From Actinomycetota bacterium (GTDB taxonomy: Bacteria; Actinomycetota; Actinomycetes; Nanopelagicales; Nanopelagicaceae): a DNA stretch of 43,204 nucleotides. The notes beneath the pieces were generated by a model that was given only the letters and a program-made list of their open reading frames with translations, had not been told where the DNA came from and searched no databases. The stretch covers positions 1 through 43,204 of the forward strand of contig WLHC01000001.1 in NCBI GenBank assembly GCA_009702925.1. Direction: 5' to 3'. Positions 42,451-43,106 of the stretch are shown here, piece after piece. A program made the translations under genes and the position numbers. Each line of letters opens with the position of its first letter. Positions within the stretch are counted from its first letter, which is position 1.

Positions 42451-42474
42451 TTCGCTATTGTGTCACTGGATTGC

Positions 42475-42480
42475 TATCCT
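42475..42480 (+). promoter_or_regulatory. Candidate -10 of the tRNA-Leu promoter
   Basis: TATCCT with a possible -35 TTCGCT at 42451-42456 (18-nt spacer) in the 43-nt gap after the divergent peptidase gene. Transcription would begin near 42487, a few nt before the tRNA. Confidence 0.4.
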
Positions 42481-42493
42481 TGACCATCACTTT

Positions 42494-42577
42494 GTCCGGG
42501 TGGCGGAATTGGCAGACGCGCTAGCTTGAGGTGTTAGTTCCCGCAAGGGATTAGGGGTTCAAGTCCCCTCTCGGACA
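42494..42577 (+). tRNA. tRNA-Leu(GAG)
   Basis: 84 nt including the discriminator A. The acceptor arms GTCCGGG (42494-42500) and CTCGGAC (42570-42576) pair with one G-T. The anticodon stem CTAGC/GTTAG encloses TTGAGGT, anticodon GAG, reading CTC and CTT. A long variable arm (TCCC/GGGA) marks a class II leucine tRNA. The T arm AGGGG-TTCAAGT-CCCCT is canonical. CCA is not encoded: the next bases are CATG, and the ATG is the apt start. Confidence 0.97.
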
Positions 42578-42578
42578 C

Positions 42579-43106
42579 ATGCATATTGATCAGGCCCTGC
42601 AACTTATTCGAGATGTCCCGAATTTTCCAAAACCTGGAATTCTTTTTAAGGACATTACTCCTTTACTTTCAAATGGGGCAGCTTTTAATTCAGTAACCAA
42701 AGAATTCGCTTCATTTGCCGATTCATCAACAGTAATTGCTGGTATTGAAGCGCGAGGTTTCATATTCGCATCCGCCGTGGCAAATAGTTTGGGTAGCGGA
42801 TTCGTACCGATCCGGAAAGCAGGCAAACTCCCGCACGAGAGCGTTTCGGCAAAGTACGGACTTGAATATGGTGTCGATACTCTGGAAATTCATAAAGATG
42901 CCGTTAGTCATGGTGCTAAGGTTTTGCTCATTGATGACGTTCTTGCGACGGGTGGGACTATTGCCGCTGCGATAGATTTAATTCAAAGAATTGGTGGCGA
43001 TGTAGTTCACGTCCTCGCACTTCTTGAAATATCGGGTTTATCTGGTCGGCAAAAGATCAACGAAACCTATCCACAGATTCCGATCACCTCCTTTTTAGTT
43101 TCATAG
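42579..43106 (+). CDS. apt: Adenine phosphoribosyltransferase
   Basis: 175 aa, normal length. It salvages adenine to AMP using PRPP. Conserved stretches are PNFPKPGILFKDITPLL near 14-30, IEARGFIFASAVA, GFVPIRKAGKLP and the PRPP loop VLLIDDVLATGGTI. ATG 42579 is the only start that keeps the family N-terminus, and it lies one nucleotide after the tRNA-Leu discriminator base. No Shine-Dalgarno can exist outside the tRNA body, so it is expected to be translated leaderlessly after tRNA processing. It is not linked to relA or secDF here, unlike in many Actinobacteria. Confidence 0.95.
   Translation: MHIDQALQLIRDVPNFPKPGILFKDITPLLSNGAAFNSVTKEFASFADSSTVIAGIEARGFIFASAVANSLGSGFVPIRKAGKLPHESVSAKYGLEYGVDTLEIHKDAVSHGAKVLLIDDVLATGGTIAAAIDLIQRIGGDVVHVLALLEISGLSGRQKINETYPQIPITSFLVS

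Follow-up and report, generated by a model that had tools for sequence, protein, structure and literature searches.

The window analysed here, a stretch of 43,204 nt at the beginning of a contig from a Nanopelagicaceae actinobacterium, places the start codon of apt a single base behind a tRNA gene, and this raises the question of where the apt mRNA begins and how it is translated. The layout described in an earlier note on this DNA (discriminator at 42577, ATG at 42579-42581, no encoded CCA in the tRNA gene) was confirmed by ARAGORN, by direct reading of the pairing and by the open reading frame (ORF) (Table 1). The acceptor stem of tRNA-Leu(GAG) is formed by GTCCGGG (42494-42500) and CTCGGAC (42570-42576), and the ARAGORN span, 42494-42578, includes the C that follows the discriminator A42577. 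Since no ATG, GTG or TTG occurs in the apt frame between the TAG inside the tRNA and the ATG at 42579, no earlier apt start is possible, and the ATG is supported as the start because its Met aligns with the start of relatives that carry a leader. The same junction was found in eight species at 62-100% apt identity, which excludes an assembly error. The presumed promoter, the extended -10-like element TTGCTATCCT, lies about 14 nt 5′ of tRNA-Leu(GAG) and is identical or nearly identical in 11 of the 11 near relatives that retain the region. At the place of a leaderless -10 element of apt (6-7 bp 5′ of the start codon) the bases are CCTCTC, which is not a -10 element. When the RNA of the tRNA-apt start region was folded with modifications ignored, the minimum free energy structure lost the tRNA fold (z = -0.55).

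Table 1 Features of the tRNA-Leu(GAG)-apt junction in the window.
Feature	Position	Strand	Basis
Presumed promoter of the tRNA-apt transcript, extended -10-like element	42471-42480	+	Sequence conservation
tRNA-Leu(GAG), first base to discriminator A73	42494-42577	+	ARAGORN; Rfam RF00005, 47.6 bits; pairing read directly
In-frame TAG closing the apt frame 5′, inside the tRNA	42552-42554	+	Sequence reading
Encoded C74, single base separating discriminator from apt start codon	42578	+	C74 present in every CCA-less tRNA gene checked
apt, adenine phosphoribosyltransferase, 175 aa, ATG adjoining C74	42579-43106	+	ORF; homologues lie 3′ of tRNA-Leu(GAG) at every genus locus checked

On the evidence described below, we consider it probable that the cut that matures the tRNA 3′ end also makes the mRNA 5′ end for a set of genes in this family, including apt, so that tRNA punctuation yields leaderless mRNAs. 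One transcript would begin 5′ of tRNA-Leu, RNase P would trim the 5′ end of the tRNA, and an endonuclease other than RNase Z would cut beside C74. The CCA-adding enzyme would then add CCA (or CA) to the tRNA fragment, while the mRNA fragment, beginning with a 5′-monophosphate AUG if the cut falls after C74 or with C-AUG if it falls before C74, would be translated by the leaderless route common in actinobacteria.

The single base between discriminator and ATG was examined in other tRNA genes. Every CCA-less tRNA gene checked carries a C directly behind the discriminator (27 of 27 in the complete relative G015, 21 of 21 in the genome of the window and 26 of 26 in G054, a class relative of 9.2 Mb), indicating that the spare base is part of the tRNA gene and not a random spacer. 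Recognition by RNase P and a C74-dependent cut are possible reasons for its universality. The idea that C74 is an adaptation to the loss of RNase Z was rejected, since C74 is equally universal in the RNase Z-bearing G054.

The gap between tRNA and apt was then compared among relatives. In the 30 best-matching apt loci of the genus, tRNA-Leu(GAG) lies 5′ of apt (29 by ARAGORN; one is cut by a contig end). Counted from the discriminator, the gap is a single base, C throughout, in eight species (G000, the window's genome, and G016, G032, G029, G035, G010, G011 and G024) and 18-19 nt in four near species (G015, G008, G004 and G017); the remaining loci have gaps of 24 nt or more. The 18-19 nt spacers carry GTTAGGATG directly 5′ of apt (L007, L008 and L009), which can be read as a Shine-Dalgarno (SD) sequence (AGGA) as well as a -10 element of the leaderless type (TAGGAT at -12). 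In the apt tree, the 1-nt species and the 18-19 nt species share one clade (support 82/85), and at least two changes between the 1-nt and leadered states are needed. The earlier note had proposed this comparison and held that a variable gap in close relatives would refute its idea. The four sister species formally show such variation, but their longer gaps carry an SD; they are therefore read as a change in the way initiation occurs, which leaves the processing idea standing. The nearest public record, JAIXXJ010000019.1 (L086; apt 95% identical), is titled Streptomycetaceae, a label that is probably wrong, as its closest relatives are small-genome freshwater actinobacteria.

Junctions of a tRNA, a C and a start codon recur at unrelated gene pairs. 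In the window's lineage they occur at Leu(GAG)-apt, Ala(TGC)-ppiA, Leu(CAA)-response regulator, Asn-Rieske/ACT, Ala(GGC)-leuS and Arg(TCT)-orn. A scan of the tRNAs of the window's genome (G000; assembly of about 1.06 Mb, 77% complete, 26 tRNAs found) and of G015 gave gaps of 1 nt in the window's genome and 4 nt in G015 at Ala(TGC)-ppiA, 1 nt at the Asn-Rieske-like protein pair, 3 nt in both genomes at Ala(GGC)-leuS, and 1 nt in G015 at Leu(CAA)-response regulator. Pairs verified in addition, with gene names taken from reading of the N-terminal sequence, were Arg(TCT)-orn, Asn-ACT protein, Met-homocysteine S-methyltransferase-like, Pro(GGG)-pgsA-like, Val(TAC)-Nif3-like and Leu(TAG)-DedA-like. 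These genes are functionally unrelated, which does not fit the special link to purine salvage that had been proposed, and the 1-nt junction, earlier regarded as extreme, is found more often than any other gap where such pairs are linked in the window's family. Genus-wide, 74 junctions in five pairs, rows that represent related species and are not independent events, fell into gaps of 1 nt (n = 32), 3 nt (n = 8), 4 nt (n = 3) and at least 18 nt (n = 31). No gap of 5-17 nt occurred among them; starts were assigned by alignment to a reference, and one row (L314) could be 5 nt rather than 65.

The two gap classes differ in their initiation signals. Short gaps (1, 3 or 4 nt) had neither an SD (0/43) nor a leaderless -10 element TANNNT at -14 to -11 (0/43), whereas an SD was present in 17/31 and TANNNT in 6/31 of the long gaps (at least 18 nt). 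These counts bear on the possibility that transcription of every junction gene starts at its ATG, driven by a separate promoter within the tRNA gene, and thereby yields a leaderless mRNA. Leaderless mRNAs initiated from a -10 element about 12 bp 5′ of the start codon are indeed common in G015, where TANNNT occurs 120 times at -12 and 62 times at -13 over a background of about 10 per position among 1203 starts; judging from this promoter signature, leaderless initiation is common in the window's lineage. The complete lack of TANNNT at the short junctions nevertheless makes internal promoters very unlikely there, with the reservation that positions -14 to -11 belong to the acceptor and T-stem of the tRNA and are not free to vary, and that a promoter could lie farther 5′ in the tRNA.

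The start codon is also anchored to the tRNA end. Of the 19 genus loci of Leu(CAA)-regulator, 15 have the C-ATG junction, with a variable N-terminus of 3 to 14 codons before the conserved RILVAEDE, and the junction is found in three further genera of the family (four in all; L300-L317 and L422-L438). Likewise, in family f36, which has larger genomes, the ATG of glmU sits with its C on the end of tRNA-Gln(TTG) in eight loci (L398-L401, L404, L406, L407 and L409), again with a variable N-terminus. The strongest sign that selection keeps the junction is this fixation of the ATG at the tRNA end despite a variable N-terminus. The regulator adjoining tRNA-Leu(CAA) is an ANTAR-type response regulator (778035-778687 in G015). 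Its counterpart behind tRNA-Leu(CAA) in the genome of the window (L314, contig C12, around 9373) could start 5 nt from the discriminator, giving a 20-codon extension, or at an alternative start 65 nt from the discriminator that is preceded by an SD.

Two other accounts have to be weighed against this anchoring. Chance abutment without function is hardly credible. With C74 fixed, an ATG is expected after about 1.7% of tRNA genes, and the single case among 39 in G015 alone is unremarkable, but 3 of the 26 tRNAs in the window's genome are followed by C plus an ATG that leads into an ORF of 60 codons or more (binomial P = 0.009 for the ATG alone; only 21% of ATGs open that far), and the junction is kept in the eight apt species, at 15/19 of the regulator loci and across four genera. 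Alternatively, genome streamlining alone could have deleted the spacer, with apt translated from the unprocessed transcript behind a tRNA leader, or from a mixed population, and processing irrelevant to expression. The genome is small and dense (93% coding in a crude ORF call of G015), and ACAT repeats flank the 18-nt spacer of the sister species, where slippage would yield the exact junction. Spacer deletion does not readily explain why gaps of 5-17 nt are missing and an SD is absent throughout the class of 4 nt or less, or why the ATG stays at the tRNA end while N-terminal length varies, and it would leave a start codon against a folded acceptor stem without an SD. We therefore regard streamlining alone as improbable, albeit less so than chance or internal promoters.

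The distribution of the junction was surveyed with a T-arm...C-ATG pattern search of 297 genomes of the class, with the reversed pattern as control. In the window's family (f1; genomes of 1.1-2.2 Mb) the pattern was found in 28 of 28 sampled genomes, with 57 matches, compared with 4 for the reversed pattern. It was also found in 159 of 269 genomes outside f1, mostly larger ones, where many matches are not tRNAs. Much of the count outside f1 may be chance, although the glmU and Nif3-like junctions there are real ORFs.

If processing of the tRNA 3′ end frees the apt mRNA, the nuclease matters. The earlier note had assigned the cut to RNase Z, which would cleave after the discriminator and leave apt with a one-base C leader. 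CCA-less tRNA genes are the classic substrates of this enzyme, and tRNA-Leu(GAG) is of this type. However, no RNase Z/BN was found in the complete G015 by tblastn and a scan for the metallo-beta-lactamase motif; only three ORFs carry the motif, and they read as ComEC-like, glyoxalase-like and RNase J-like. Nor did a credible RNase Z emerge from the window's genome or from 12 other genomes of the genus, whose matches to the HMM TIGR02651 were weak fragments of ComEC-like or RNase J-like proteins, from nine further genomes of the family, or from four of the five f36 genomes tested. Behind this absence stands a completeness of 77% for the window's genome and of 99% for the relatives G014 and G015, and the same search recovers full-length RNase Z in several class relatives. 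RNase Z therefore has very little probability as the enzyme. What stands of the earlier proposal is that apt would be co-transcribed with the tRNA and released by tRNA 3′ processing in leaderless or near-leaderless form, a reading indirectly supported by the only conserved promoter element lying 5′ of the tRNA, by the lack of an SD and of a -10 element at the leaderless position inside the tRNA and by the recurrence of the junction at many unrelated genes; the RNase Z step does not stand.

Published 5′-end maps of other actinobacteria report that Cutibacterium acnes has no obvious tRNase Z and that its CCA-encoding tRNAs are cut between the two Cs (PMC3848588), and that most CCA-encoding tRNAs of Streptomyces coelicolor are cut between C74 and C75, with sites a few nucleotides downstream in its CCA-less tRNAs (PMC4681348). 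A cut after C74 at the apt junction would give exactly a 5′-AUG mRNA end, so a one-base leader is not a certain product, whereas the downstream sites of the CCA-less type, if applied here, would place the cut inside apt. G015 encodes RNase PH, RNase E/G, RNase D and a CCA-adding enzyme (tblastn), and most of its tRNA genes lack CCA. The presence of RNase PH and RNase D argues against tRNA punctuation, in that exonucleolytic maturation would destroy the mRNA. The leading candidate for an endonucleolytic cut would be the RNase E of actinobacteria, an enzyme that cleaves on the 5′ side of cytidine; the mycobacterial enzyme prefers RR/CNU (slash, cut site; PMC10641625). The apt junction reads A/CAU, with one purine rather than two before the cut, and cleavage there would produce a C-AUG end. 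The motif R/CNU is present at the junctions, and U at +3 occurs in 16 of 49 other tRNAs, which is not an enrichment (P = 0.23). Because the general tRNA set lacks this enrichment, RNase E is a candidate only, and the CNU motif was dropped as a general tRNA signal.

Translation of such a fragment would be in keeping with what is known of actinobacteria. For translation in mycobacteria, an ATG or GTG at the very 5′ end is enough (PMC4633059), and leaders of up to 5 nt count as leaderless (PMC6448022). The junction genes resemble the leaderless mRNAs of Mycobacterium, Corynebacterium, Streptomyces and Cutibacterium in having an ATG or GTG start at or near the predicted 5′ end and no SD. In these known mRNAs the 5′ end stems mostly from transcription that begins right at the start codon, whereas tRNA processing is proposed here and a monophosphate end is predicted.

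The arrangement can be set beside several known systems. As in the tRNA punctuation of animal mitochondria, the tRNA end would set the mRNA start with almost no leader, followed by leaderless translation, and the start codon lies within the mitochondrial range of 0-3 nt from the tRNA 3′ end (0 nt after C74). Unlike mitochondria, this is a free-living bacterium in which a minority of tRNA genes and short separate transcripts, rather than a whole genome strand, would be involved; moreover, the mitochondrial 3′ cut is made by RNase Z (ELAC2), and no RNase Z was found here. As this hallmark enzyme was not found and the cut itself is a prediction, the junction is not assignable to the mitochondrial system. 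With the C74-C75 cleavage of C. acnes and S. coelicolor it shares an encoded C74 and, with C. acnes, the lack of an evident RNase Z, the cut here being predicted; the relevant parts of those reports concern CCA-encoding tRNAs and do not tie the cuts to making mRNA starts (PMC3848588, PMC4681348). Co-transcription of tRNA and protein genes, as would apply here, has been reported for eight tRNAs in Corynebacterium glutamicum (PMC3890552). The start codon in our case adjoins the tRNA. Known bacterial tRNA-mRNA co-transcripts, by comparison, normally keep a spacer with an SD. The Escherichia coli MazF system likewise makes leaderless mRNAs by endonucleolytic cutting, as would occur here, but it is a stress toxin that generates 5′-hydroxyl ends and involves no tRNA. 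In the open literature we found no bacterial leaderless mRNAs made from tRNA transcripts, only mitochondrial, archaeal snoRNA or unrelated cases.

These comparisons allow a broader but tentative proposal, which we rate as distinctly less secure than punctuation within the family: in actinobacteria that lack RNase Z, one C74-side endonuclease may both mature tRNAs and make exact 5′-AUG mRNAs for a shifting group of housekeeping and regulatory genes (apt, ppiA, orn, glmU and the ANTAR-type response regulator), tying their expression to tRNA maturation. If true, gene callers and operon predictors would be warned that a start codon on a tRNA boundary is real. The junctions would also serve as direct reporters for the nuclease that, where RNase Z is absent, acts beside C74 on the tRNA 3′ ends of actinobacteria, a question raised by the C. 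acnes and S. coelicolor maps cited above. A start codon would need no leader, SD or promoter of its own, and tRNA excision could make mRNA starts in free-living bacteria, as it does in mitochondria.
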